This document shows positions 787 through 36,128 of a stretch of DNA of 36,128 bases, one piece after another. The first letter of the stretch is position 1. Each line of letters starts with the position of its first letter. Below the pieces are notes generated by a model, which was given only the letters and a program-made list of their open reading frames with translations, ran no database searches and was not told the DNA's origin. Both the position numbers and the translations under genes were made by a program. Where the stretch lies: positions 1 to 36,128 of the IMG/VR virus record IMGVR_UViG_3300034158_000061; one strand, given 5' to 3'. The stretch is from a virus.

Positions 787-3700
787 GTGACCATCGCGTC
801 GGTACAGACGGCGGCAGCGCAGAGCGACGCCGGGGCATCCTCGGTATCGACGACGTACGCCAGCACGCCGACGGCGGGCAACATGCTCATATGCGCCGTT
901 GCCTTCGACAAGGACGCCGGGACGATCACCCCACCGAGCGGGTGGGGTGAGGTCTTCAGAAATAGCGGGACCTCGGTAAGCATCTGGGTCGGATGGAAAA
1001 TCTCGGCCGGAACCGAGTCGACCGTGACGGCCGGTCGCTCGAACACGGCCGGGATGAACGGCGACACGCTCTGGCTCTCCGAGTTCTCGGACTCGGCATC
1101 CGGGAACTGGACGATCCTCACCTCGACGGCCAACTACTCCGACAACTCGTCGGTGAAGAGCTGGGCATCGGGCACGGTGGCCGCCCCCGGCCGGGCATGC
1201 GCAGCGATCACCTTCTTCGGCATCGACTCGACGCAGATGGCCCGGACGTCCCAGGCGTTCAGTAACTCTTACGCCACGCTGCGAGCCTGGGTTGCTAACG
1301 CGGGCAACTACCGGGCGGACATGGCGGTCGGATGGCTGTCCGCTTTCGCCGGTGGCTCGACAACATCCTCGACGCACACGCACGAGCCGGACGCGGACCA
1401 AGTCACCGGCGCGATCTTCACGTTCTGCCGGGTCGCCTCGGCCGTCACCGTCACCCCGAGCCCCGTCCTCGGGTCCGTCGCAATCCCGGCCCCGACCGTG
1501 ACCGCGGTGAGCGGGCCGCTCGCGGATCCGGTCCTCGGGGTGGCGAGCGTTCCCGCTCCGACCGCTACGGCCGGGGCCGCGGCCACCGCTACCCCGGTGG
1601 CCGGAGCCGTGGCGGTCTCGGACGTAGCGGTCTTGTGCGAGAAGCCGCTTTACATCGACGACCACTTCACGGGCTCGGACGGCGATCCGCTCGGCGCAGC
1701 CTGGGCATCGTCGGCCGCGACGGCCGGGACGTCGGCGACCATCAACGGCAACCGGCTGCGACTCAACTCGGGGTCGGCCACCGGGTACGCCGGGAAGAAG
1801 GCCATCCGGTTCGCCGACGGACCCCTCATCGACACGGAGCTCTACGGGCTCATCAACTACCCGGACCTGACTGACTGCCGGGTCGAAGTGTGGGCACGCA
1901 CCCCGGGCCCGACGGACGACAGCTCGACCGGATACTTCGCCAACATGCCGCGGTCCGGAACGATCGGGATCGGCAAGGCGGTCGCCTACACCTACACGGA
2001 CTTGGGTACCGCCTCGGTCACGATCCCGAACGCCACCGACTACCGGTTCCGGTTCCGGTGCGTCGGTACGTCCATCAAGTTGAAAGTGTGGGCTGCGGCC
2101 GGAGCCGAGCCGTCGTCCTGGTCGGTCGAAGTAACTGACTCCGCCATCACCGGCCAGGGGTACAACCACGCCCATCTGCAAGGTGGGAACACGGCCGGTG
2201 GCGTCGTCGACTTCGACGACATCCGACTCACCAACGGGACCGAGACGGCCACCCCGAGCGCGGTCGCCGGAGCGGTCACGATCCCGGCCGCTACTCCCGG
2301 GATCGGCGCCACGGCCACCCCGTCGGCCGTGGCCGGGGCGGCCACCATCCCGGCTCCGACCGTCACCGGCAACGGCGCCACGGCCACCCCGTCGGCCGTG
2401 GCCGTGGCGGCCACCATCCCGACCCCGAGCGTCACGGCCGGTGCCGTGGCCATGCCTGGCCAGGTGGCCACGGCCGTGGCCATCCCGGCCGCCACGGCGT
2501 CGGCCGGTGTCACGGCCGTGGCCACGGCCGTGGCCGGTGTGGCCACGGTCCCGGCCATGTCCGGCACGGCCTCGGCCACGGCCACCCCGGCCGTGGCCAC
2601 CGGTGTGGCCACGGTCCCGGCTATGTCCGGCACGGCCTCGGTCATGGCCACGGCCGTGGCCATTGCGGCCACGGCGTCGATCCCCGCGCCGACAGTCACG
2701 GGGTCCGGGTCCATCGCCACCCCCGGTGCCGTGTCCGGCGTGGCCACGATCCCCGCACCCGTGGCCACGGCAGGCGTGTCCGGGGCCGCCACGCCGGTAG
2801 CGGTGGCCGCCACCGTCCCGGCCGTGACCATCGCGGCCGGTGCCGTGGCCACGCCTGGCCGGGTGGCCACGGCCGTGGCCATCCCTGTGGCCACGGCCGT
2901 GGCCGACGCCGTGGCCACCCCTGGCCAGGTGGCCACGGCCGTGGCCATCCCGGGTGCCACGGCCACGGCCGGTGCCGGAACCGTGGCCACGCCTGGCCAG
3001 GTGGCCACGGCCGTGACCATTCCCGTGGCCACAGTCACGGCCGATGCCGTGGCCACGGCCACCCCTGTGGCCACGGCCGTGGCCATCCCGGCCGCCACGG
3101 CATCGGCCGGTTCCGGAACCGTGGCCACGCCTTCGGCCATCGTGGCCACGGCCACGATCCCGGCGCCGGACGTGTCCGCCAGCAAGGTCGCCACCCCGTC
3201 GGCTGTTGCCGGCCAAGTCAGCATCCCGACCGTCACGGCCACGGCCGAGGCGGTGGCCGCCCCCGCTTCGGTGGCCGGGACGGTGGCGATCCCGGTCCCG
3301 TCCGTGGTCGCGGGCACGGCCGACATCGCGGCGCCCCAGCCCGTGATCGTCTACGCTTCGATACCGACCCCGGCCGGTGTCGCCGAGGCGACGGCCGGAC
3401 CGGCCGGGGTCGATGGGTCCGTGGCCATCCCGGACCCGACCGTCACGGCCGCCTCGTCCGTCTCCCCGGCGGAGCTGGTCGCCGTCGTCACCGTCCCGGC
3501 CCCGGCCGTCGTGGCCGAGGCTGGCGCCTCGCCGTCCGCGCTCACCGGAACGACCACCATCCCGACCCCGACCGTCCTGGCCGGGGTGTCCGCGGTCGCC
3601 TCGCCTTCGCCGGTCGAAGGGTCCGTGCTGGTCGCCGCCCCGACGCTCACGGTCGTGCGGACGCCGGTCGGGTCAGGTGGTTGGTACGGCCTTCTCTCGA

Positions 3701-3843
3701 TAGTTCGTGAAGCCGAGCAGATCGCCCGAGCCGAGGCGAACGCCCCGACGACCACCTGCCCGGACGACGGCGAAGTGCTGCTCGCCGCCCCAGGTGGGGG
3801 CCGGTTCTGTCGGTTCTGCGGGTGGCGGACCGACGGCCGCTAG
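787..3843 (+). CDS. Very long repetitive head-fibre-like protein with C-terminal zinc ribbon
   Basis: This 1018-residue protein starts at GTG 787. Residues 1-210 form a beta-rich domain. About residues 285-490 look like a concanavalin/jelly-roll fold (starts YIDDHFTGSDGDPLGAAW, ends VDFDDIRLTNG). From about 490 to 955 there are degenerate repeats of roughly 18-22 residues built on ATPxxVAGxVxIPAPTVTA. The C-terminus has CPDDGE and then CRFCGW, a partial zinc-ribbon pattern with three Cys. It lies before the head-tail connectors, so a capsid fibre is more likely than a tail fibre; both remain possible. The repeat DNA is full of the palindrome GGCCACGGCCGTGGCC, which leaves spurious long frames open on the other strand. 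Repeat number is likely to vary between relatives. Confidence 0.7.
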   Translation: MTIASVQTAAAQSDAGASSVSTTYASTPTAGNMLICAVAFDKDAGTITPPSGWGEVFRNSGTSVSIWVGWKISAGTESTVTAGRSNTAGMNGDTLWLSEFSDSASGNWTILTSTANYSDNSSVKSWASGTVAAPGRACAAITFFGIDSTQMARTSQAFSNSYATLRAWVANAGNYRADMAVGWLSAFAGGSTTSSTHTHEPDADQVTGAIFTFCRVASAVTVTPSPVLGSVAIPAPTVTAVSGPLADPVLGVASVPAPTATAGAAATATPVAGAVAVSDVAVLCEKPLYIDDHFTGSDGDPLGAAWASSAATAGTSATINGNRLRLNSGSATGYAGKKAIRFADGPLIDTELYGLINYPDLTDCRVEVWARTPGPTDDSSTGYFANMPRSGTIGIGKAVAYTYTDLGTASVTIPNATDYRFRFRCVGTSIKLKVWAAAGAEPSSWSVEVTDSAITGQGYNHAHLQGGNTAGGVVDFDDIRLTNGTETATPSAVAGAVTIPAATPGIGATATPSAVAGAATIPAPTVTGNGATATPSAVAVAATIPTPSVTAGAVAMPGQVATAVAIPAATASAGVTAVATAVAGVATVPAMSGTASATATPAVATGVATVPAMSGTASVMATAVAIAATASIPAPTVTGSGSIATPGAVSGVATIPAPVATAGVSGAATPVAVAATVPAVTIAAGAVATPGRVATAVAIPVATAVADAVATPGQVATAVAIPGATATAGAGTVATPGQVATAVTIPVATVTADAVATATPVATAVAIPAATASAGSGTVATPSAIVATATIPAPDVSASKVATPSAVAGQVSIPTVTATAEAVAAPASVAGTVAIPVPSVVAGTADIAAPQPVIVYASIPTPAGVAEATAGPAGVDGSVAIPDPTVTAASSVSPAELVAVVTVPAPAVVAEAGASPSALTGTTTIPTPTVLAGVSAVASPSPVEGSVLVAAPTLTVVRTPVGSGGWYGLLSIVREAEQIARAEANAPTTTCPDDGEVLLAAPGGGRFCRFCGWRTDGR

Positions 3844-5849: not shown

Positions 5850-6580
5850 CCAAACAGAACGGGCTCGGCGCCCGCCTTTTCGTCGGCGGATACAACCTGT
5901 CCGGCGACACCCAGTCCGTCGGCAGCATCGCCGGACCCGTCTCCCCCATCGACGTGACCGGCATCGACAAGCAAGCGTATGAACGGATCGGTGGACGCCG
6001 CGACGGCCGTATGGCCTGGACGAGTTTCTTCAACCCGGACGGCGCGCACCCGGTCCTGTCAGCGCTGCCGAGGACGGACATCGTCACGTCCTACTTCGCC
6101 GGGACGACGATCGGAAACCCGGCCGCCTCCCAGGTAGCCAAGCAAGTCGGGTACGACGTGACCCGCCCCATTGACGGGGCCATCACCATCGGGATCGAAG
6201 CCCAGTCCAACGGGTACGGGCTGGCCTGGGGAGTCATGCTCACGGCCGGGGAGCGGACCGACACGGCCGCCACCGACGGGGCGACGCTCGACCAGGCCGC
6301 GGCCACGTCGTTCGGGTGGACCATGTTCGTCCACCTAACCTCGCTCACCGGGACCGATATCGAGATCAAGGTGCAGGACTCGGCGAACGGTTCCACCTGG
6401 GCCGACCTCGCGGGCGCCACCACCGGTGCGCTCACGACCGAGGGGTCGGCCCGAGTTGCTGCCACGACGACGACGGCCACCGCGCGGCGCTACGTCCGGG
6501 CCGTGACGACGACGACGGGTGGCTTCACGAGCGCGACGTTCGCCGTCATGTTCGTGAAGCCACCCGTGGCGGTGGCGTGA
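5846..6580 (+). CDS. Major tail (tube) protein with C-terminal Ig-like extension
   Basis: This 244-residue protein starts at ATG 5846 (ATGA overlap). Residues 1-155 match the tail-tube type (MTKQNGLGARLFVGGYNLSG, then IDVTGIDKQAYERIGG). The Thr/Ala-rich last ~90 residues (DIEIKVQDSANGSTWADL) look like the Ig-like or carbohydrate-binding tails often fused to phage tube subunits. It begins with nearly the same residues as the protein at 7006 (M-x-KQNGLG, VTG-x-DK-x-A-x-ERI). Expected to form the tube hexamers around the tape measure. Confidence 0.75.
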   Translation: MTKQNGLGARLFVGGYNLSGDTQSVGSIAGPVSPIDVTGIDKQAYERIGGRRDGRMAWTSFFNPDGAHPVLSALPRTDIVTSYFAGTTIGNPAASQVAKQVGYDVTRPIDGAITIGIEAQSNGYGLAWGVMLTAGERTDTAATDGATLDQAAATSFGWTMFVHLTSLTGTDIEIKVQDSANGSTWADLAGATTGALTTEGSARVAATTTTATARRYVRAVTTTTGGFTSATFAVMFVKPPVAVA

Positions 6581-7002
6581 TGTTCCGGGTCCCCCCGGCC
6601 GGGCCGGTGCAGGCGTACAAGACGTACGCGGTGCGGCGCCGTCCCGACGTCGACCGCCCGGCCGCCTGCTACGAAGTCGGGTGCGAGGCGTTCGTCAAAG
6701 GCTGGCTCACCTCGGTCGACGAGTCGACCGAGCAGGGGCTCGCTATCGGCCGGTACATCCGAACCGAGTCGGGTCGCACTTTCCGAGAGAGCCGGTCGGC
6801 CGAAGGTCTGACCGTGTTCCGGTTCGAGGCTGGGCAGCGATGTTTCGCCGACCATCGGACGGTGGCCGAGGACTACCGGGTTCGCCTCGGCGACCACCGG
6901 GGGAACCTCGGCGGCCTTCGGGTCCACACACGTGCCGTTGATTGGGTCGAAGATTTCGGCGAGCACCAGCAACTTCTAGTCGAGCAGATAGAGAAGGGGT
7001 AA
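6580..7002 (+). CDS. Conserved tail-region protein of unknown function
   Basis: The start is ATG 6580, overlapping the previous TGA (140 residues). The sequence MFRVPPAGPVQAYKTYAVR leads into a Cys pair (CYEVGC), basic and aromatic segments, and HTRAVDWVEDFGEHQ. No membrane helix or signal peptide is visible. It lies between the two tail-tube-like genes, a conserved place in many actinophage genomes, so a structural or assembly role is likely. I cannot assign a family. Confidence 0.6.
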   Translation: MFRVPPAGPVQAYKTYAVRRRPDVDRPAACYEVGCEAFVKGWLTSVDESTEQGLAIGRYIRTESGRTFRESRSAEGLTVFRFEAGQRCFADHRTVAEDYRVRLGDHRGNLGGLRVHTRAVDWVEDFGEHQQLLVEQIEKG

Positions 7003-8084: not shown

Positions 8085-10260
8085 GATCACGGTCAGGATC
8101 AGTGACCGTGTTCCGACGTTCGCCCGAGTCCGGGAAGACGCTTCGTCGATGGAGCGTTCGATCCGGGACTCGGGCGAACGCTCGGGCGGGCACCTCGAGC
8201 GCCTGGCCGAGAAGGCCAAGGAGTTCGCGGTCGCGGCCGGACGGGGGCTCGTCACGGCCGCCTCGGGCCTTGCCTCGGTGGCGTCGATGGCAGGCATTGC
8301 CGCCCCGGCCGTGGCCGGGGTAGCGAGCGCCCTCGTTGCCGTAGCCGGGACGGTCGCCGACCTGACCCCCATCATCGCGTTCGCCCCGGCTCTGGTCGGT
8401 GGCTGGCTCTTGCTGAAAGCGGCCGTGATCTCGAGCGCCTCGGCAATCGGCGAGGCGCTCGAACCGGTCGTGACCAAGTTCCAGGCGGCCACCGTTCACG
8501 CGCAAGCCCTCGCGCAAGTGGGCATCGCCAAGGTGGGCGAAGAGTTCAACAAGGTCAACATGCCCCAGGTGGCGGGGTTCCTTGACCAGATCGCCCGGAC
8601 GGCGAACCGGGCGGCGATCGAGTTCGGAGGCTGGGTCAACTCGGCCCCCGGAATCTCCCTGATCGAGCGAGTGACCCGGCTCACGGGGAATGCCTTCGAG
8701 GACGCCGCACCTTCGATCACGCGCGCCGCAATCGCCCTCGGCAACATGGCAGGGCGGGCCAACATCGAGGGCACGATTCGGATGATCGGTGACGCAGTCG
8801 AGTTGACGGCCCGTCGGTTCGCCGAATGGGCAGACTCCAAGTCGGCCGATCAGATCAACGAATCCATGAGCAAGGTCGAGCGCGCCTTCGGGTTCGTCAT
8901 CGACAAGATCAGGGCGCTCGTCGAGGTCATCAAGTGGCTCGCCTCCCACGAAGAAGAAGTGAAGAAGTTCGGTGACGCTTTCGCCGTCGCCGGGATCGCC
9001 ATCGGCCTAGCCACAGGCAACTGGGTTGCCGTCATCATGGGCGCCGGAGGCTTGATCCTCTCCCACTTCGACGAGGTCAAGGCCGGGATCTCGAAAGCCT
9101 GGGAGGCGATCTCGAATGACCCGTCGGTGCAGGGGATCGCCGACGCGGTAAAGGACATAGCGAAGATCATCAAGGAGGATTTCGTCTCGGCCTGGGAGGC
9201 GATGCAACCGGCCTTGCAGAAGTTCGGCGAAGCCGCCTCGGAAGCCTGGGACAAGATCGGTCCGTTCGTCGAAGACTTCTTGCGCAACCCCGAAGTGATC
9301 GACGGACTGCGCACCATCGCTGCCGTCGTCGGGATCATCGTCGTCGCCTTCATCGCGCTCGGCGCCACCGTGACGGTGGCAACCGGGGCGATCGTTGCCG
9401 CGATCGGCGGCCTGCTCGTCTGGCTTCTCGGTGACTTCGTCGACGGGGTGAAGGAGTCCGTCGAAGGATTCATGTCGGCCTGGGACTACCTGTCCGAGCT
9501 GCCGGACAGGATCGGCGAATGGCTCTCTGCGCTGCCCGAGAGGATCGGCGAATGGCTCTCTGAGGCGGCTAACACGGCCGCCTACTGGGCCGGGTACGCG
9601 GTCGGTTGGGTGATCAACGCCTTCATGGAACTTCCGGACAAGGTGTCCGAGGCGATCTCGTCGGCCCCAGACAAGATCGCCGCGACCCTCAAGGAGACCG
9701 CGGCCGAGGCCAAGAAGGGCGCGACGAACGCGGTCAACTCCTTGCGGACGGCGCTCTCGAACGCGCCGTCGGCGATCTCGTCCGCGTTGTCCTCGGCCGG
9801 GGCCAACGTCCGCAAGGCGTTCTCGGGCGCCGGGTCCTGGCTCACCCAGGCGGGCCGCGACGTCATCAACGGCCTCATCAACGGGATCAAGTCGATGGCC
9901 TCGGCCGCGTTCAATGCGGCGCAAGGCGTCGTGAGCTCCGCCATCCGTGGGGCCACCGGCGGGCTGGCCGGCAAGAGAACCGGTGGCGTCATCGGCATGG
10001 CCGCCGGTGGCGGACCCCGGAACGGGCTCACCCTCGTCGGCGAAGACGGGCCCGAGCTCGTCGACCTCGCCCCCGGGTCGACGGTGCATAGCAACGCCGA
10101 CTCGCAGCGCATCCTCGCCGACTCGGGCGGAGGCGGGGGCGGGGGCCGTACCGTGATCGAGTTCGTCGGTGCCAGCGATGCCGAGCAGGTGCTCGTCGAC
10201 TTGCTGCGCCGAATCGTCCGAGTCCGTGGAGGTAGTGCCGAAGTGGTGTTCTCGTCATGA
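8065..10260 (+). CDS. Tape measure protein
   Basis: This 731-residue protein starts at GTG 8065 inside the end of the chaperone long form. The helical Ala-rich N-terminus holds strongly hydrophobic stretches (about residues 50-125, 300-330 and 415-455), as in tape measures that insert in the host membrane. Amphipathic repeats such as LPDRIGEWLSALPERIGEWL follow, then a Gly-rich C-terminal part. At the usual ~1.5 A per residue the tail would be about 110 nm, so a short-tailed siphovirus. It overlaps the next gene by 4 nt (ATGA). Confidence 0.85.
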   Translation: MSGNAIEITVRISDRVPTFARVREDASSMERSIRDSGERSGGHLERLAEKAKEFAVAAGRGLVTAASGLASVASMAGIAAPAVAGVASALVAVAGTVADLTPIIAFAPALVGGWLLLKAAVISSASAIGEALEPVVTKFQAATVHAQALAQVGIAKVGEEFNKVNMPQVAGFLDQIARTANRAAIEFGGWVNSAPGISLIERVTRLTGNAFEDAAPSITRAAIALGNMAGRANIEGTIRMIGDAVELTARRFAEWADSKSADQINESMSKVERAFGFVIDKIRALVEVIKWLASHEEEVKKFGDAFAVAGIAIGLATGNWVAVIMGAGGLILSHFDEVKAGISKAWEAISNDPSVQGIADAVKDIAKIIKEDFVSAWEAMQPALQKFGEAASEAWDKIGPFVEDFLRNPEVIDGLRTIAAVVGIIVVAFIALGATVTVATGAIVAAIGGLLVWLLGDFVDGVKESVEGFMSAWDYLSELPDRIGEWLSALPERIGEWLSEAANTAAYWAGYAVGWVINAFMELPDKVSEAISSAPDKIAATLKETAAEAKKGATNAVNSLRTALSNAPSAISSALSSAGANVRKAFSGAGSWLTQAGRDVINGLINGIKSMASAAFNAAQGVVSSAIRGATGGLAGKRTGGVIGMAAGGGPRNGLTLVGEDGPELVDLAPGSTVHSNADSQRILADSGGGGGGGRTVIEFVGASDAEQVLVDLLRRIVRVRGGSAEVVFSS

Positions 10261-16463: not shown

Positions 16464-16922
16464 TCAGTCGAACAGGTCTTCCTTCTTCGACTTCTCGGCG
16501 AGAGCCGCCAGGTACTTCCGTGCCTTCGCCTTGTCGGCATCGGTCGGGTCGCCAAGGATCCACGAGTCGGAGAAGCCGCGTTGCTGCGCCTTCTTCTTGG
16601 CCAGGCGACCGAGCACCTTCTTGCCCCGGCGAATCTTCGGCTTCAACTGGCCAACCACGTTGACCCCGGCGAATTGGAAGTCTTCGAGGACATCCCCGGC
16701 CACAACCATGTCGGTGGCCTCGCCGTCCAATACGTGCACGTCGCATACGACGAACTCGTATTCCTTGCCGTCCGCCCCCGGGAGGGTGGACTTGCGCGAG
16801 CCGGTCTCGTGCGGCTGCACGAGCAGCAACCGGCCCTCGAGGTCCTCGCTCTTGACGAACGCGCTGCGCGCGTCATCGAAGTCTTCGTCAAGATCGTTGC
16901 TGTCGAACAGTTCGTCAGACAT
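16464..16922 (-). CDS. Putative ssDNA-binding protein
   Basis: I chose ATG 16922 (152 residues) because GGAGAG precedes it. The N-terminus is very acidic (SDELFDSNDLDEDFDDA). The centre is beta-rich (GRLLLVQPHETGSRKSTL, EYEFVVCDVHVLDG), compatible with an OB fold. A basic stretch (KPKIRRGKKVLGRLAKKK) follows, and the protein ends in KKEDLFD, an acidic-hydrophobic tail like those of SSB and T7 gp2.5. It lies next to the RecB-like nuclease, fitting a recombination/replication pair. This is a fold-level inference, not a recognised family hit. Confidence 0.5.
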   Translation of the reverse strand: MSDELFDSNDLDEDFDDARSAFVKSEDLEGRLLLVQPHETGSRKSTLPGADGKEYEFVVCDVHVLDGEATDMVVAGDVLEDFQFAGVNVVGQLKPKIRRGKKVLGRLAKKKAQQRGFSDSWILGDPTDADKAKARKYLAALAEKSKKEDLFD

Positions 16923-20751: not shown

Positions 20752-20997
20752 ATGGCCGTCTTCACGCGACAGATCAGTACCCAGGTAACCGAGGCGACGA
20801 AGGAGGTCCTCGGCCGGATCGTCGCCGAAGACTCCACCCGGGGCCGGGCCCGAGAGGCGGACGCCGTCCGGGCCGCCCTGCACCTGGGCCTCGAGGTCCT
20901 CACCGAATGGGACCCGCGACAGCGGGTCGAGCTGTACGCCTCGCTACGGTCCGGGCTCGAGGCCGAAGACGGCGGCAGCGACTCGTCTCCCCTGTGA
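20752..20997 (+). CDS. Small ribbon-helix-helix-like DNA-binding protein
   Basis: This 81-residue protein starts at ATG 20752 with AAAGGGG upstream. A short strand (FTRQISTQVTEATKEVLG), a helix, then READAVRAALHLGLEVL gives the strand-helix-helix plan of MetJ/Arc-like repressors. The tail is acidic. It heads the primase-helicase block and is a likely regulator of that block or of the divergent operon, by binding in the gap on its left. The family call is by pattern, not by a database hit. Confidence 0.55.
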   Translation: MAVFTRQISTQVTEATKEVLGRIVAEDSTRGRAREADAVRAALHLGLEVLTEWDPRQRVELYASLRSGLEAEDGGSDSSPL

Positions 20998-21052: not shown

Positions 21053-23737
21053 ATGCCCGATACCAAAGTAACATCCGACGTCTACGGTCGCGCGGCCCGC
21101 GCCTACTGGCGGGCCGGATGGTCTTGTCCGTTGCCGCTCCCCGCCGGGGAGAAGTGGCCGCCCCCCAAGGGGTACACGGGTGGATGCGCGCGCATCGTGT
21201 CGGTGAAAGACATCGCCGGATGGGAGCGGCAACTCGCCGCCTCGAACCTGGCCGTCCGGCTCGTCGGCCCGATGATCGGTATCGACGTCGATGACTATGT
21301 GACGGCCGACGGGATCGAGAAGCGCGGGGCCGCCACCATCGCGGCGGCCGAGAAAGACCTGGGCCCGCTGCCCGCCACCTGGCGGTCATCGAGCCGAGGG
21401 GCCGACAGCGCGAGCGGGATCCGGCTCTACCGGTTGCCGCCCGGGGTGCTGCTCGGGGCGGGCGCCGAGCGCGCCCTCGTCGACACCTACGGGTATCACG
21501 TCGAGATCATCCGGCCCGACCACCGGTATCTCATCGCCTGGCCTTCGGTGCACGACGAGACGGGCGCCACCTACCGGTGGATCTCCCCGGACGGTACTGA
21601 GCTCGACGAAGGCGACATCCCACCGATGACCTCCGTACCCGAATTGCCGGCAAGCTGGGTGGCCTTCTTCACGGGGGCGCCCATACCCGAGCGCTCCTCG
21701 GCTCAGGCCTCGACCTCCTCGGCTCAGGCCTCGACCTCCTCGGCTCAGGCCTCGGACGAGGACGACGAGTTCGATACCCCGGGTGCGGTCGAGCGGACGT
21801 TCTCTCGGGCCGAGGCCGCCTCGGTCATCACGAGGACGCTCGACGAGCTGTCGCGCGTCAAGCGCGGACAGATCAACGAGGCGCTCAACCGTGACGCCTA
21901 CTACCTGTTCCACTTCACGCCCGTGTTCATCGACCGGCGCGACCTAGCGCGCCGCCTGCTCGAAGCGCAGCGCACCGCCTGGGTAGCGAGCGGCGGCAAG
22001 GACGACAAGGACTACACGAAAGCCCAGAGCACGATCCGGCGTGCTGCCGCCTCGGCGGCCGGACCCGGACAGTGGGTGGCGATGGAGGACGAGGACGGGG
22101 AAGACCCTCTCGTCAAGCTGTCGGCCGAGGCGGCCGACGATGACGACGAAGACGAAGGTGCCGGGTCGACGAAGACGACCGGCGTCTTCTTCACCGACGC
22201 CGCGTTCTCCGAGCACCTGGCTGAGAAGGTGCTCGCGCACCGGTTCGTGCATGTGCTGCGCACCGGGTGGATGTCCTGGGTTCCGTCGCCCGGTGGCGGA
22301 CTGTGGCGGGATGCCGATGAGTCCCAGGTGCTCGAAGCGGTCCGGACGTACTGCCTGGCGATGTTCCGGCGGGCCGTCCTGAAAGCCGGACGCCTCGAAG
22401 GGGACGACGACGCCGGAGCCGCCGAGCGCGAGCAGGCCACCGCCCTCGCCGACGCCTGGCGTGCCTTGTGCTCGCGGTCCCGACTCTCGGCCGTGACCGC
22501 CCTCACCGCGGCGCAAGATGTCGTGAGCATTCGGATTGACGCGCTCGATGCCGACCCCGACTTGCTGAACACGCCGTCCGGGGTTGTCGACCTGCGGACC
22601 GGGCAGGTGCGGCCCGGTCGACCCGCCGACCTCATGACGAAGATCACGAGGGCGCCGTACCGGGGACTCGACTACGCGCACCCCGTGTGGGAGCAGGCGA
22701 TCGAGGCGATCCCGGACGACGTCCGGGACTGGGCCCAGACCTTTATGGGCCAGGCGATCACCGGGCACCTGAATACCGAGGACCGCCTATTGCTGCTGGA
22801 CGGCGAAGGCAAGAACGGAAAAGGGGTCCTCACGAACGACGGGATCGCCTGGGCGATCGGGACGTACGCCTACCTCGTGCCAGAGACGTTGCTCATGTCC
22901 GCCTCCCAGGTGCACCCGACCGAGTTCATGAGCCTGCGAGGCGTGCGCCTCGCCTTGATGGACGAGACCCCCGAAGCGCGAGTGCTCGACACTCAACGCC
23001 TCAAGAGGGTTGTCGGCCAACCGCAGATGACGGCCCGCGAGCTGTACCAGCGCAACGTCACGTTCGACCTACGGCACACGATGGTGATCTCGACCAACCA
23101 CCTGCCCCGGGTCACCGAGACCGACCACGGGACGTGGCGGCGCCTGGCTCGGCTCCGGATGCCCTACACCTACCGGACCGGGACCGAGGCGATCCGGGAT
23201 GAGCACGACCGGGTAGGGGATCCCGGGATCAAGGCGGCCCTCAAGCTGGACGAGGACGTCCAGGCTGCCGCCCTGTCCTGGGTCGTGCGGGGCGCACGCG
23301 CCTGGTACGCGGCCGATCGTCGCCAGCTCGACCTCCCGCCCCGGGTGGCCACCGATACGGACACGTGGCGCTCGGAGAGCGACCCGATGTGGATGTTCGT
23401 TGAAGAGTTCCTCGAGTTCGACCCGAGTAAGCACGTAGTCGCCCGCGAGCTGTGGCAGCACTATTGCTCGTGGCTCGAGAGCCGCGGGCACAAGCCGTGG
23501 TCGGATCAGACGTTCGCCGACCGCTTCGCCTCGCACGCGCTCGTGCGCGCCCACGGCGCGCGGGTCAGTAAGGCGAGGGTCGTGGCCGGTGGCCCGCTCG
23601 GGGCGGCGAGTCGGTCGCCCGAGAGGTTCAAGGCGGGCACGCTCGAGACGAGCACGAGGTACATGGCCTGGGTCGGGGTGGCGTACGCCGGTGACGGTCC
23701 GGCCGACAGCGGATCGGACGTCTTCGACGTACCCTGA
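21053..23737 (+). CDS. Primase-polymerase / D5-like helicase fusion
   Basis: This 894-residue protein starts at ATG 21053 (GGAAGGA upstream). Residues ~10-210 are a Prim-Pol (AEP) domain: WSCPLPLPAGEKWPPPKGY, the metal-binding GIDVDDY near residues 75-82, and HVEIIRPDHRYLIAWPS. A linker near 215-235 has three SSAQAST repeats. A D5_N-type region follows, then an SF3-like ATPase: P-loop GEGKNGKG near 583-590, Walker B LMDET near 635, sensor STNHLP near 680 and an RRL arginine region. It should prime and unwind at the phage origin. The P-loop has GKG instead of GK[ST]. It precedes a strong terminator and the candidate origin region. Confidence 0.85.
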   Translation: MPDTKVTSDVYGRAARAYWRAGWSCPLPLPAGEKWPPPKGYTGGCARIVSVKDIAGWERQLAASNLAVRLVGPMIGIDVDDYVTADGIEKRGAATIAAAEKDLGPLPATWRSSSRGADSASGIRLYRLPPGVLLGAGAERALVDTYGYHVEIIRPDHRYLIAWPSVHDETGATYRWISPDGTELDEGDIPPMTSVPELPASWVAFFTGAPIPERSSAQASTSSAQASTSSAQASDEDDEFDTPGAVERTFSRAEAASVITRTLDELSRVKRGQINEALNRDAYYLFHFTPVFIDRRDLARRLLEAQRTAWVASGGKDDKDYTKAQSTIRRAAASAAGPGQWVAMEDEDGEDPLVKLSAEAADDDDEDEGAGSTKTTGVFFTDAAFSEHLAEKVLAHRFVHVLRTGWMSWVPSPGGGLWRDADESQVLEAVRTYCLAMFRRAVLKAGRLEGDDDAGAAEREQATALADAWRALCSRSRLSAVTALTAAQDVVSIRIDALDADPDLLNTPSGVVDLRTGQVRPGRPADLMTKITRAPYRGLDYAHPVWEQAIEAIPDDVRDWAQTFMGQAITGHLNTEDRLLLLDGEGKNGKGVLTNDGIAWAIGTYAYLVPETLLMSASQVHPTEFMSLRGVRLALMDETPEARVLDTQRLKRVVGQPQMTARELYQRNVTFDLRHTMVISTNHLPRVTETDHGTWRRLARLRMPYTYRTGTEAIRDEHDRVGDPGIKAALKLDEDVQAAALSWVVRGARAWYAADRRQLDLPPRVATDTDTWRSESDPMWMFVEEFLEFDPSKHVVARELWQHYCSWLESRGHKPWSDQTFADRFASHALVRAHGARVSKARVVAGGPLGAASRSPERFKAGTLETSTRYMAWVGVAYAGDGPADSGSDVFDVP
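21695..21757 (+). repeat. Three 21-bp direct repeats in the primase-helicase linker
   Basis: The unit TCCTCGGCTCAGGCCTCGAC(C) occurs three times in tandem at 21695, 21716 and 21737, the third slightly diverged at its end. It encodes SSAQAST repeats between the Prim-Pol and helicase parts, so it probably sets linker length and may slip between relatives. Confidence 0.85.
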
Positions 23738-23755: not shown

Positions 23756-23797
23756 GAGGCGGTCCCCCCGCGTGGACAGGGGGGACCGCCTCTTTTT
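23756..23797 (+). terminator. Strong intrinsic terminator after the primase-helicase
   Basis: The 14-bp arms 23756-23769 and 23779-23792 pair perfectly and are followed by TTTTT (23793-23797). It is the most classical rho-independent terminator in the window and isolates the repeat array that follows from upstream transcription. Confidence 0.9.
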
Positions 23798-23825
23798 CTG
23801 CCCGCACGAGGTAGGCAACCCAGGT

Positions 23826-24010
23826 GCGCATACGCGCGCATACGTATGCAGGCAGGCGCATGCACGCGCATGCGCAACCACGGTGTAAATGATCTAGGTG
23901 TCAGGCGCATGCGGGCGCATGCGTGCGCATGCGTTACTTGGGTTCCATGTTGTGTTACGATTCGGTCTCGGGCGCATGCCCGTGCATGCGAACGCATACG
24001 GACGCATGCG
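23826..24010. repeat. Array of eleven 9-bp GCGCATGCG-like units at 10-bp pitch
   Basis: Units close to GCGCATGCG or GCGCATACG start at 23826, 23836, 23856, 23866, 23905, 23915, 23925, 23972, 23982, 23992 and 24002. Within each of the four groups the pitch is exactly 10 bp, near one helical turn. Five units are exact GCGCATGCG or differ at one base. The array lies between a strong terminator and the RHH-like gene at 24041 in otherwise non-coding DNA. It is best read as a multi-site protein-binding region: operator, origin iterons or a partition site. Confidence 0.8.
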
Positions 24011-24011
24011 T

Positions 24012-24029
24012 ACCTAGGTGCAATAGAGG
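24012..24029 (+). promoter_or_regulatory. ACCTAGGT-type promoter of the RHH-like gene
   Basis: ACCTAGGT (24012-24019), four bases, then TAGAGG (24024-24029) repeats the layout of the cassette promoters at 31-34 kb. The expected start is about 24036, leaving a leader of only some five bases before ATG 24041. The last unit of the repeat array covers the -35 position. Confidence 0.5.
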
Positions 24030-24040
24030 GGATTCTCACA

Positions 24041-24310
24041 ATGAGTAACGTCGTCATGGTGCGGCTCACGGAGGAAGCACGCCGGGAGCTCCGGGCGCAC
24101 GTCCACCGGATGTCCGACGAGCAGGGCCGCATCGTCACCTACTCCGAGGCGGTACTCGACCTGACCGGGCGCGTCACCCCAGGTCAGTCGATGGCCATCA
24201 ACGGGGAACTGACCATCACTGCCCCGGAGGCCACCGCTAACGGGGTTGTCGCGGCCGACGAGGATGACCGCTGGTTGGACGACTTCGATCCACTCGGTCA
24301 GGATAACTGA
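24041..24310 (+). CDS. RHH-like DNA-binding protein next to the repeat array
   Basis: I chose ATG 24041 because the open frame upstream consists only of the repeat array. The 89-residue protein begins MSNVVMVRLTEEARRELRAH and continues RMSDEQGRIVTYSEAVLDL, a strand-helix-helix plan like CopG/ParG-type repressors. The last 40 residues are acidic (DEDDRWLDDFDPLGQD). Proteins of this class bind short tandem sites about one helical turn apart, matching the array directly upstream, so autoregulation or nucleoprotein assembly there is a natural inference. Confidence 0.6.
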   Translation: MSNVVMVRLTEEARRELRAHVHRMSDEQGRIVTYSEAVLDLTGRVTPGQSMAINGELTITAPEATANGVVAADEDDRWLDDFDPLGQDN

Positions 24311-24354: not shown

Positions 24355-24496
24355 CAAGATCATCTGGCAGGGGTGGCAGGGGTAGTTGGGAATTTTACGT
24401 GTGTGCGCAAGATCAACTATTTTATTAGGGATACGGGTAAAATCTGAAATTTCAGAAGTTTCCGAATACCCCTGCCACCCCTGCCAGATGATCTTG
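24355..24496. repeat. 30-bp perfect inverted repeat around an AT-rich core (origin candidate)
   Basis: Arms 24355-24384 and 24467-24496 are exact reverse complements over 30 bp. Each arm holds two direct copies of GGCAGGGGT. The 82-bp interior has only about 37% G+C by my count and contains a 14-bp palindrome (24443-24456) and the pair ATTTTAC/GTAAAAT (24392-24398 and 24437-24443). It lies in a 475-bp non-coding gap between the RHH-like gene and the sliding clamp. Symmetric iteron pairs flanking an easily melted core fit a replication origin. A small mobile element is less likely because I see no target duplication. Confidence 0.75.
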
Positions 24497-26290: not shown

Positions 26291-26569
26291 ATGAGGACGA
26301 ACTCAGCGGGTCAGAGCATGACGGTCGGCGAGCTCCGAGAGGCGCTCGCCTCCACGGACGACCGGGCGACCGTCGCATTCGAGGACGGCATCACCGAACT
26401 GGTCGGCATCACCGTCTGGCCGCAGGACGTCGTCTTGCACGTCGAGCACGAGGCCGACCTCGAGGCACGCGTCGCCGAGCTCGAGGCGTTCCTCGAGCTG
26501 ATCGTCGACAAGGACGCGACGGCGCGGAAGCTGTCCGACATCCGGGCGAAAGCCGAGGAGTTGCTGTGA
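26291..26569 (+). CDS. Small acidic coiled-coil protein
   Basis: This 92-residue protein starts at ATG 26291; a second Met (residue 10, SMTVGELREAL) is possible, but the promoter spacing favours the first. A compact N-terminal part (VAFEDGITELVGITVWPQDV) is followed by a long charged helix (EADLEARVAELEAFLELI) likely to form a coiled coil. Role unknown. Its GTGA overlap with the helicase gene suggests a coupled partner. Confidence 0.6.
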   Translation: MRTNSAGQSMTVGELREALASTDDRATVAFEDGITELVGITVWPQDVVLHVEHEADLEARVAELEAFLELIVDKDATARKLSDIRAKAEELL

Positions 26570-28293
26570 CGATCAAGCTCCGGCCCTACCAGTCCGAAGC
26601 GATTGCCGCCGTCATGGCAGCCATCGCCGACGGCTCGAACCGCCCGGCCGTCGTGCTCCCCACGGGCGCGGGCAAGACGGTCGTGTTCTCTGCGCTCGCC
26701 TCTCAGTGGCAGGCAGAGCATGGCGGCCGGGTCGTCATCCTCGCCCACCGGGAAGAGCTCATCCGACAGGCGGCCGACAAGTACCGGTCCGTCAACCCGA
26801 ACGCCGTTGTCGGCATCGTGAAGGCCGAGCGCAACGAGACCTCGGCCCCCGTCGTCGTCGCCTCGGTGCAGACGCTCGCCGGGCAGCACCGCCTCGACCA
26901 GCTCGACGACGTCTCCCTCGTGATCGTCGACGAATGCCACCATGCGACCGCGCCCAGTTACCGGCGAGTGCTCGACCACTTCGGCGGCACCGCCGTCGGC
27001 TTCACCGCCACGATGGCCCGAGGCGACGGCGCTGCGCTCGGCACCGTCTGGGATCAGATCGCGTACGAACGCTCGATCCTTCGGATGATCCGGGACGGGT
27101 ACCTCGTCGATGTCGCCGGGGTGCGGATCGAGGTCCCCGACCTCGATCTATCCGGTGTCCGCAAGATCGGGGGCGACTACTCCGAAGGCGTCCTCGGCGA
27201 CAGGATCATGGACTCGATTGCCCCCGCCACGGTGGCGAGCGCCTACCGGCAGCACGCGGCCGGGAAGTCGGCCATCCTGTTCGCCCCCACCGTGCAGACG
27301 GCCCAGGTTTTCGCCGAGGCGTTCGAGGCCGAAGGCTTCACGTCCCGCGCCGTCTGGGGCGACATTCCGAAAGACGAGCGGCGCCAGGTGCTCGCCGACT
27401 TCGACGCCGGGCGGGTCGACGTCTTGTGCAACTGCATGGTGCTGACCGAGGGCTTCGACTCCCCTCGGGCCGAGGTATGCATCATCGCTCGCCCGACCGC
27501 CAGCGCCCCCCTGTACGTACAGATGGTGGGCCGGGTACTTCGGCCCTGGCCCGGCAAGGCGCGGGCCCTGGTGCTCGATGTGGTGGGCGCGGCCGGGCGG
27601 CACGAGCTCGCCACCCTCGCCGTATTGGGCGGCGAGCAAGACATCAAGCCGAAGACCGGCCAGACCTTGCTCGCCGCCCTCGAAGACCTCGAGGCGGAAG
27701 CCGAGCCCGAGTCGCTCATCGAAGGCGGATACGTCGGCGAAGTCGCGGCCGTCACCGTCGACCTGTTCGCCGGGTCCCGGCAGCAGTGGCTACAGACGGC
27801 GGCCGGGTACTGGTTCCTCCCGGCCGGGTCCCGCTTCATCGTGCTCATGCCGTGCAAGCCCGAGGCGGGCGACCAGGAGAAGTCCTGCCCGTCCGACTGT
27901 GACGGCTGCTCGTGCCACCTGGGCCACGCGCCGTGCGGTTGCTGCTCGGACCACTGGGAGGCGCCCGACGCGCCGCCGTCCTGGGATGTCGCCTGGGCCT
28001 CGACCCGCAACCGCAGTGGCGGCTACATCGCTCGAGGCGTGACCGATCTCGGGTACGCGATGGCCCAGGGCGAGGGCGACATCACGGACGACGAAGAGAT
28101 CCTCGCCCGCAAGGAAGGCGCCTGGCGCAAGCGCAAGGCGACCGAGAAGCAAATCAGCTACGCGCGAGGGCTGCGGATCGCCGAGCCCGAGGGCGGCTTC
28201 GATTCGCTGCGGGCCGGGGCGCTCGGTGACCTGATCTCGTGTGCCCTCGCCAGCAAGCGGGTAGACAAGGCGATCACTGCGCGGCTCGCCTGA
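26566..28293 (+). CDS. DEAH-type superfamily 2 helicase
   Basis: The start is GTG 26566 (GTGA overlap), 575 residues. Visible motifs are: I PTGAGKT at ~32-38, Ia ILAHREEL, II DECHH at ~122-126, III FTATMARGD, V TEGFDSP, and VI QMVGRVLRP at ~319-327. This is the layout of phage SF2 helicases related to UvsW/RAD25-like enzymes. Around residues 440-465 a Cys-rich insert (CPSDCDGCSCHLGHAPCGCC) probably binds metal. The C-terminal ~55 residues (ATEKQISYARGLRI) form a small helical domain. It likely acts in replication fork restart, R-loop removal or recombination. Confidence 0.85.
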   Translation: MTIKLRPYQSEAIAAVMAAIADGSNRPAVVLPTGAGKTVVFSALASQWQAEHGGRVVILAHREELIRQAADKYRSVNPNAVVGIVKAERNETSAPVVVASVQTLAGQHRLDQLDDVSLVIVDECHHATAPSYRRVLDHFGGTAVGFTATMARGDGAALGTVWDQIAYERSILRMIRDGYLVDVAGVRIEVPDLDLSGVRKIGGDYSEGVLGDRIMDSIAPATVASAYRQHAAGKSAILFAPTVQTAQVFAEAFEAEGFTSRAVWGDIPKDERRQVLADFDAGRVDVLCNCMVLTEGFDSPRAEVCIIARPTASAPLYVQMVGRVLRPWPGKARALVLDVVGAAGRHELATLAVLGGEQDIKPKTGQTLLAALEDLEAEAEPESLIEGGYVGEVAAVTVDLFAGSRQQWLQTAAGYWFLPAGSRFIVLMPCKPEAGDQEKSCPSDCDGCSCHLGHAPCGCCSDHWEAPDAPPSWDVAWASTRNRSGGYIARGVTDLGYAMAQGEGDITDDEEILARKEGAWRKRKATEKQISYARGLRIAEPEGGFDSLRAGALGDLISCALASKRVDKAITARLA

Positions 28294-29683: not shown

Positions 29684-29917
29684 TCAGCCCTCGGCCTGGG
29701 TCGCGGCCTTCGCCTTAGCCCGCGCGCCGACGAACTTGCCGAGCGCGCTGTAAGACAGGCCGAGCAGGTTCGCCATCCGGTAGGCGGTCACGCCTCGGTC
29801 GGCGAGCGCCCGCATCGTCACGGTCCGCTCGGCCACCCGCGCGCGGTAGGCGGCCTCGGCTTCGGTGACGAGCCGGTGCTCGTTGATCAGTTGTTCGAGT
29901 AGCTCGTCGGTATCCAT
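29684..29917 (-). CDS. Small HTH regulator
   Basis: I chose ATG 29917 (77 residues) over ATG 29938, because a TACCGT box lies exactly six bases before 29917 and the upstream Met would overlap the promoter. The sequence is helical throughout (DELLEQLINEHRLVTEAEAA), with an HTH-like segment VTAYRMANLLGLSYSALGKF and a basic Lys/Ala tail. It is divergent from the small membrane genes across a symmetric operator, so it is a likely autoregulator of both directions. Confidence 0.6.
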   Translation of the reverse strand: MDTDELLEQLINEHRLVTEAEAAYRARVAERTVTMRALADRGVTAYRMANLLGLSYSALGKFVGARAKAKAATQAEG

Positions 29918-29923
29918 ACCCCA

Positions 29924-29969
29924 ACGGTACATCACCATGGTTGCTCATTCAACCCCGGTGATGTACCGT
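29924..29969. promoter_or_regulatory. Symmetric operator with two divergent promoters
   Basis: The 46-bp element has 13-bp arms (29924-29936 and 29957-29969) that are perfect reverse complements, plus an inner GGTTG/CAACC pair on the same centre. Reading right, TTGCTC (29941-29946)-N17-TACCGT (29964-29969). Reading left, TTGAAT (29952-29947)-N17-TACCGT (29929-29924). Both -10 boxes lie inside the arms, so one repressor on the dyad could shut both promoters. Confidence 0.7.
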
Positions 29970-29995
29970 AGAGATCACCCAACGGAAGGAACACC

Positions 29996-30157
29996 ATGAA
30001 CCGCCTGTACGTCATCGCCTCGGCCACATTCTCGGCTGCCGTCTGGTGGCTGGCTACGTCCCTCGAGCTGGTCGGCGATGTCGCGGCCGGGATCGCCGTC
30101 TTCGTCGGCTTCGTCGGCAGCATTGTTGCCGGCCATGTCTGGGAGGCGCAGCGATGA
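29996..30157 (+). CDS. Small membrane protein (53 residues)
   Basis: ATG 29996 follows ACGGAAGGA and opens 53 codons ending at TGA 30155-30157, which overlaps the next ATG (ATGA). Two hydrophobic segments are visible: LYVIASATFSAAVWWLA and VAAGIAVFVGFVGSIVAG. It is the first gene of the rightward unit of the divergent promoter. Function unknown. Confidence 0.6.
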   Translation: MNRLYVIASATFSAAVWWLATSLELVGDVAAGIAVFVGFVGSIVAGHVWEAQR

Positions 30158-35698: not shown

Positions 35699-36128
35699 CG
35701 GTTGTCACCTTTACGGCCGAGGCGGCCACGGCGACGCGAGCGCGCGGCGTCGCGGCTGATACCGAGGCGCTGCCCGAGCTCGGGATCGAGCATCGGCCGA
35801 TCCGTCTCGGCGCGCTCGGCCCACTCGGCCCACACGGCCTCGTCGTCGACCGGCCGGTCAAGGGTGGCCGTGATCCGGCCGGGGGTGGCCGACTCGGCCG
35901 CGGCCACCTTGAGTCGGACCGGCCGGTCGGCCGGGGTGGCCGTGGCCGAGTCGGCCGGTACCGGCCGGGTGGCCGTGGCCGAGTCGGCCGGTACCGGCCG
36001 GGTGGCCGTGGCCGGGGCGGCCGGTACCGGCCGGGTGGCCGTGGCCGAGTCGGCCGGTACCGGCCGGGTGGCCGTGGCCGAGTCGGCCGGTACCGGCCGG
36101 GTGGCCGTGGCCGGGGCGGCCGGTACCG
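35695..36128 (-). CDS. C-terminal part of a repeat-containing protein with HTH-like end (partial)
   Basis: The frame is open from the window edge to the stop at 35695. Codons from 36126 inward read ATATRPVPADS-type repeats. From about 35910 follow VDDEAVWAEWAERAETDRP and LGQRLGISRDAARSRRRGRL, an HTH-like basic end. A GTG at 35907 could start a short 70-residue form, but open repeats upstream suggest a longer protein whose start lies outside. It overlaps the YdjM-like gene by ATGA. DNA binding is inferred from the last 25 residues. Confidence 0.55.
   Translation of the reverse strand, partial: VPAAPATATRPVPADSATATRPVPADSATATRPVPAAPATATRPVPADSATATRPVPADSATATPADRPVRLKVAAAESATPGRITATLDRPVDDEAVWAEWAERAETDRPMLDPELGQRLGISRDAARSRRRGRLGRKGDNR
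35935..36128. repeat. 33-bp tandem repeats running off the window
   Basis: A 33-bp unit containing the palindrome GGCCGGTACCGGCC occurs about six times. Two variants (GAGTCG or GGGGCG at one place) alternate with a 99-bp higher-order period. It encodes the repeating ATATRPVPA segments of the minus-strand gene, and the array continues past the edge. Confidence 0.8.

Follow-up and report, generated by a model that had tools for sequence, protein, structure and literature searches.

A tandem array of eleven units at 10-bp pitch before a small regulator-like gene of an actinophage-like virus: a candidate cooperative operator

Results

Genetic context of the array

The window analysed here is the whole of IMG/VR virus record IMGVR_UViG_3300034158_000061 (36,128 nt, G+C 69%), which is probably an incomplete fragment because end repeats are not reported for it. 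The virus is uncultivated and actinophage-like; an actinobacterial host is likely, since, among named phages, those whose primases resemble its own most closely infect actinobacteria. The left half of the window contains tail-like genes and an amidase gene, and the minus strand carries a WhiB-like gene (17887) and a Cas4-like exonuclease gene. Long tandem repeats occur within a tail-region gene (787-3843), and a tandem array of 33-bp units occupies the right-hand end (35920-36128). The right half opens with a Prim-Pol/D5 primase-helicase gene, a second helicase gene being located at 26566-28293. The small gene 24041, named after the position of its ATG, stands alone 3' of a strong terminator and forms its own transcription unit (Table 1).

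The original prediction described a non-coding stretch behind a strong terminator, filled with tandem units whose last copy leads into the promoter of 24041, and this anatomy was confirmed. The terminator folds with -35.3 kcal/mol (z -5.4 against shuffles), and the array begins behind it and stops 30 bp 5' of the ATG. The reading frame of 24041 stays open upstream to 23846, through the array; despite this, the part before the ATG probably does not encode protein, because codon repeats would not give a 10-bp pitch.

Table 1. Features of the array locus and related elements (positions refer to the window unless a contig is named)
Feature	Position	Strand	Basis or remark
Prim-Pol/D5 primase-helicase	21053-23737	+	protein family searches
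Intrinsic terminator 3' of the primase-helicase gene	23756-23792	+	14-bp stem, 9-nt loop, T run
Array group 1	23826-23844	+	units 23826, 23836 (GCGCATACG)
Array group 2	23856-23874	+	units 23856 (GCGCATGCA), 23866 (GCGCATGCG)
Array group 3	23905-23933	+	exact GCGCATGCG three times, at 23905, 23915, 23925
Possible -10 (TACGAT) between groups 3 and 4	23956-23961	+	weak promoter-scan match, anchor 23948
Array group 4	23972-24010	+	23972 GCGCATGCC, 23982 GTGCATGCG, 23992 ACGCATACG, 24002 ACGCATGCG
Promoter core of 24041, ACCTAGGTGCAATAGAGG	24012-24029	+	match to the repeated promoter family of the virus
Predicted 89-aa protein, N-terminal strand-helix-helix (RHH-like), acidic C-terminus	24041-24310	+	single-sequence model; candidate array binder
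Inverted repeat, likely replication origin	24355-24496		30-bp perfect arms around an AT-rich centre
Examples of 10-bp-pitch repeats in MerR-like promoters of relatives	L080 2633, L096 3398, L111 3389, L137 3360, L113 and others

Layout and composition of the units

Allowing up to two mismatches to GCGCATGCG, eleven units were found in four groups (2+2+3+4), with seven adjacent pairs exactly 10 bp apart. Distances of 20 and 30 bp between units occurred four and three times, respectively, and the larger steps between groups were 39 and 47 bp; groups 1 and 2 share a common 10-bp register from which one unit is absent. In 1000 dinucleotide shuffles of the local sequence (23800-24041), the mean number of units was 3.1 (maximum 9) and that of 10-bp pairs 0.03 (maximum 2), compared with the 11 units and 7 pairs observed, and 300 shuffles of the whole window gave 0.6 such pairs (maximum 4).

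Columns 3-6 (GCAT) and 8 (C) of the unit are invariant. The conserved core, CGCATRCG, forms an 8-bp palindrome, CGCATGCG, as expected for a symmetric dimer, while the first base is G or A in every copy and its mirror position is free, which makes the unit slightly asymmetric relative to a pure dyad. At the tenth position the base is random, with an information content of 0.18 bit. With a conserved core and a free tenth base, the units look like selected protein binding sites separated by a free spacer base. The same two features oppose an origin of the array as a slippage repeat; in the 10-bp arrays of Paenibacillus, Burkholderia and Streptomyces all ten bases are repeated, as expected from slippage.

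A role for the shape of the nucleic acid itself, either as alternating purine-pyrimidine (Z-prone) DNA or as a structured leader RNA, was also considered. Alternating runs are longest inside the array, which contains the top three of the whole window (27, 21 and 20 bases), and the leader at 23967-24045 folds with a z of -2.2. However, neither Z-prone DNA nor a leader RNA needs a strict 10-bp pitch, the alternation is broken by the tenth base in three of the eleven units and a longer leader is ordinary compared with shuffles (z -1.4), which leaves this explanation very improbable. Rfam gave no match.

The promoter of 24041 and the repeated early promoters

An early promoter core is present in seven copies (28639, 31125, 31877, 32333, 32765, 33588 and 33843), six of which are embedded in a 76-nt cassette; many early genes therefore appear to have their own promoter. 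Its architecture is TTGCGT-17-TAGAGT, with the -35 lying within the dyad GGTTGCGTATGCAACC, and in several cassettes a GC-rich hairpin is found just 5'. No copy of the cassette was detected when other contigs were scanned. The promoter of 24041 has the ACCTAGGTG-ATAGAG core in common with these seven. Using a matrix trained on them (GGTTGCGTATGCAACCTAGGTGTGATAGAGT), it reached 17.4 bits for the half from AGGTG to the -10 and ranked ninth in the window, the eight higher scores belonging to the seven cassettes of the training set and to one further site. The -35 of this promoter is occupied by the last array unit, at the place where the cassettes have their 16-bp dyad. Gaps between the groups contain weaker promoter-like words (anchors 23881 and 23948).

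The centre of the cassette dyad, CGTATGCA, resembles the array unit (9.9 bits vs 13.0), which hints at a wider regulon, and GGCATGCG occurs close to another promoter (28628). A small HTH-like gene on the minus strand (29684-29996) is divergent from 29996, and the divergent promoter holds a cassette-like dyad, GGTTGCTCATTCAACC, inside the long dyad ACGGTACATCACC..GGTGATGTACCGT; because of this similar dyad, the HTH protein may be a regulator of the cassettes. Given this gene, the cassettes were ambiguous as support for binding by 24041. These likenesses speak for the array being an operator or activator array of a different regulator, from the phage or from the host, which would control 24041, possibly along with the repeated early promoters. 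In the virus itself, the RHH-like product of 20752, the HTH protein 29684 and the WhiB-like protein 17887 could be such binders. On the other hand, the unit matches the cassette centre at no more than 6 of 8 bases, the cassettes duplicate one another, and similar or higher unit-like scores were obtained at 16742, 12829 and 1194. Control by a different regulator is thus considered unlikely, though not negligible.

The predicted 24041 protein

Searches of Pfam, PHROGs, NCBIfam and PDB sequences gave no meaningful family match for 24041 and no RHH hit. Domains of the RHH type are short, and their sequences diverge rapidly. The full-length AlphaFold model, made from the single sequence, contains a beta strand at residues 4-8 and helices at 11-28 and 34-42, good confidence being restricted to the N-terminal part; when residues 1-46 were modelled separately, the mean pLDDT was 85 and the strand was not assigned. 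Foldseek found no significant match for the models and the fold search with the full-length one was uninformative. In a second-look alignment of residues 1-46, NikR, an RHH protein, came first with a Z of only 4.1 (rmsd 2.5, 40 residues aligned), followed by sigma factors and TCP domains with Z around 3. The RHH-like character originally assigned to 24041 is thus weakly supported by the predicted strand-helix-helix topology and the NikR match, and the sequence searches lent it nothing; RHH is a plausible, and the best, reading of the predicted fold. A weak match of phiBT1 gp1.1 to the C-terminus lies outside the strand-helix-helix part.

Search for relatives of the array and the gene

Two alignment-based scans with the primase recovered about 70 distinct relatives, mostly 35-43% identical, and neither a GCGCATGCG array nor a homologue of 24041 was found among them. 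Homologues of 24041 were likewise not found in searches of IMG/VR, of named phages, of 297 genomes from the same class as a Streptomyces genome, of the contigs of 18 relatives and of the ORFs of 131 loci, and thus no gene-bearing relative was found in which the co-occurrence of 24041 and the array, proposed as a check by the original prediction, could be compared. Comparison with plasmids and phages at the DNA level returned nothing useful, and two relatives of like size have only the primase and the helicase in common with the virus of the window. Scanning for patterns of two or three units returned unrelated coding sequence, short 10-bp repeats identical in all ten bases and one marine viral contig, L063, at the end of which five GCGCATACG-like units follow one another at 10-bp pitch, interrupted by one register gap (6370-6428). 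In the literature, GCGCATGCG is encountered mainly as the unrelated human NRF1 motif. Upstream of RHH-looking genes in two contigs, L013 and L014, single perfect dyads were seen, those of L013 being a 28-bp palindrome at 9637-9664 and 18-bp arms at 6899-6946; they count in favour of the operator reading. A further contig, L110, contains repeated blocks resembling tRNA 3'-ends (GGTTCGAGTC.CCGGCACC) with short repeats of the GGCAAGGC type between them (8500-8950).

10-bp-pitch promoters in primase relatives

A search for short-pitch repeats in the relatives, in which single hits were near chance level, pointed to a small HTH_17/MerR-like gene just 5' of the primase. Across a non-redundant set of 34 regions upstream of this gene, lag 10 had a z of 10.7 against single-base shuffles and the other lags between 6 and 15 did not exceed 3.1; in 188 control upstream regions, the z of lag 10 was 0.3 and the codon lags 9 and 12 were visible. 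Judged from these upstream sequences, this virus group habitually has 10-bp-pitch arrays before small regulators, which supports reading the array of 24041 as an operator. The fold of the relatives' regulator (BldC/MerR-like) differs from the one predicted for 24041, which was not matched by a MerR-like HMM built here; in the window this HMM matched only 29687-29944 on the minus strand, weakly (E 2e-4) and 5.6 kb off. At the place of the relatives' MerR-like gene, directly 5' of the primase, the window has a second small gene with a strand-helix-helix-looking, RHH-like sequence (20752-20997), and its promoter region contains ATCCTATTAGGAT.

An origin-like inverted repeat behind the primase

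About 18 of the primase relatives (raw count; among them L012, L013, L014, L015, L017, L018, L098, L118, L121-L123, L130, L131, L133, L138 and L139) have an inverted repeat soon 3' of the primase stop, its arms carrying repeats of 8-10-bp pitch and lying about 40-54 bp apart in most. The element at 24355-24496 is of the same kind and of different sequence; it is located 3' of gene 24041 and has two TGGCAGGGG copies at 9-bp pitch in each arm. The inverted repeat behind the primase is probably a family-wide replication origin, and the window element is likely to be a better origin candidate than the array, so that the array and 24041 would sit between the primase and the probable origin.

This element bears on the possibility that the units are iterons of a replication origin, to which the primase-helicase or an accessory initiator would bind. 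As in the iteron origins of primase-helicase elements, tandem repeats lie here beside an initiator-type gene, the array being directly 3' of it, and one further contig (L005) has two GCGCATGCG-like units in a non-coding repeat region near an ORF that looks Prim-Pol-like by eye. In contrast to such origins, the conserved origin-like element of the primase group lies elsewhere, and the array is missing from the relatives in which that element is conserved. Iterons are accordingly an improbable explanation, and the origin switch suggested originally is not supported.

Discussion

The region 23826-24029 is best explained as the control region of 24041, in which eleven tandem operators, with a length of about one helical turn apiece, would precede a promoter. 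A small DNA-binding protein, most likely that encoded by 24041, would occupy adjacent units one turn apart as dimers, and neighbouring dimers would touch and coat the groups cooperatively. Once group 4 is filled, the -35 of the promoter would be covered and 24041 shut off. The position over the promoter, the dyad core, the free spacer base and the separate transcription unit argue for an operator array of 24041. That the array serves as an operator of some protein, 24041 or another, appears probable; for the full proposal, a cooperative autoregulatory operator of 24041 itself, we see an even chance. Coating and autorepression by 24041, as originally proposed, are thus supported in part, in so far as the anatomy and the 10-bp-pitch layout of the relatives fit an operator array. 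The array with its statistics, the terminator, the match to the promoter family and the place of the last unit are observed; the identity of the binder, its RHH-like fold, the cooperativity and the repression outcome are inferred.

MetJ and CopG are RHH repressors with tandem operators. The operators of RHH repressors (MetJ met boxes, CopG, omega of pSM19035 and SSV1 F55) likewise consist of short tandem sites over the small regulator's own promoter, for which cooperative coating has been proposed. RHH proteins are reported to act cooperatively on multiple operator sites and to repress their own promoters, and F55 binds tandem repeats at early promoters as well as at its own (PMC5569661). The present array differs from these in its GC-rich palindromic word, its 10-bp pitch and its eleven units in four groups; the RHH fold of 24041 is only predicted and the unit array is absent from the related viruses searched. 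BldC-type regulators of Streptomyces assemble cooperatively into head-to-tail multimers on direct repeats spaced by about one turn, with 9 bp per subunit (PMC5859096), and the MerR-like regulators of the primase group have 10-bp-pitch promoters, but 24041 is not MerR-like and its unit is palindromic, whereas BldC sites are asymmetric.

The centromeres of RHH partition systems (ParR/parC, omega/parS) are also alike in that short tandem repeats, 10-bp ones included, overlap the promoter of their binder (PMC5016525), and the array could be a centromere of this type coated by a ParG/omega/ParR-like protein. Nevertheless, no ParA/ParM-like motor gene was seen among the scanned proteins of the window, which is a fragment and may lack such a partner gene, and the partition-like complex of the original prediction is very unlikely.

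A broader reading, which we hold to be doubtful, is that the viruses of the primase group share one promoter design, a 10-bp-pitch operator array placed before the gene of a small regulator at the primase locus, in which unrelated folds (BldC/MerR-like in most, strand-helix-helix here) have the same role; with the unit recurring singly at early promoters of the window, the array protein would time the whole early programme.

If the operator reading is true, the locus would offer a compact example of cooperative operators, open to direct testing, in which the site is new and the small regulator unclassified, and the array would sit at the replication control point of a large uncultivated actinophage-like virus group. 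The origin-like inverted repeat and the 10-bp-pitch BldC/MerR-like promoters, two features common to the group, could serve to locate replication control, and to test it, in viruses that have no cultured relative.
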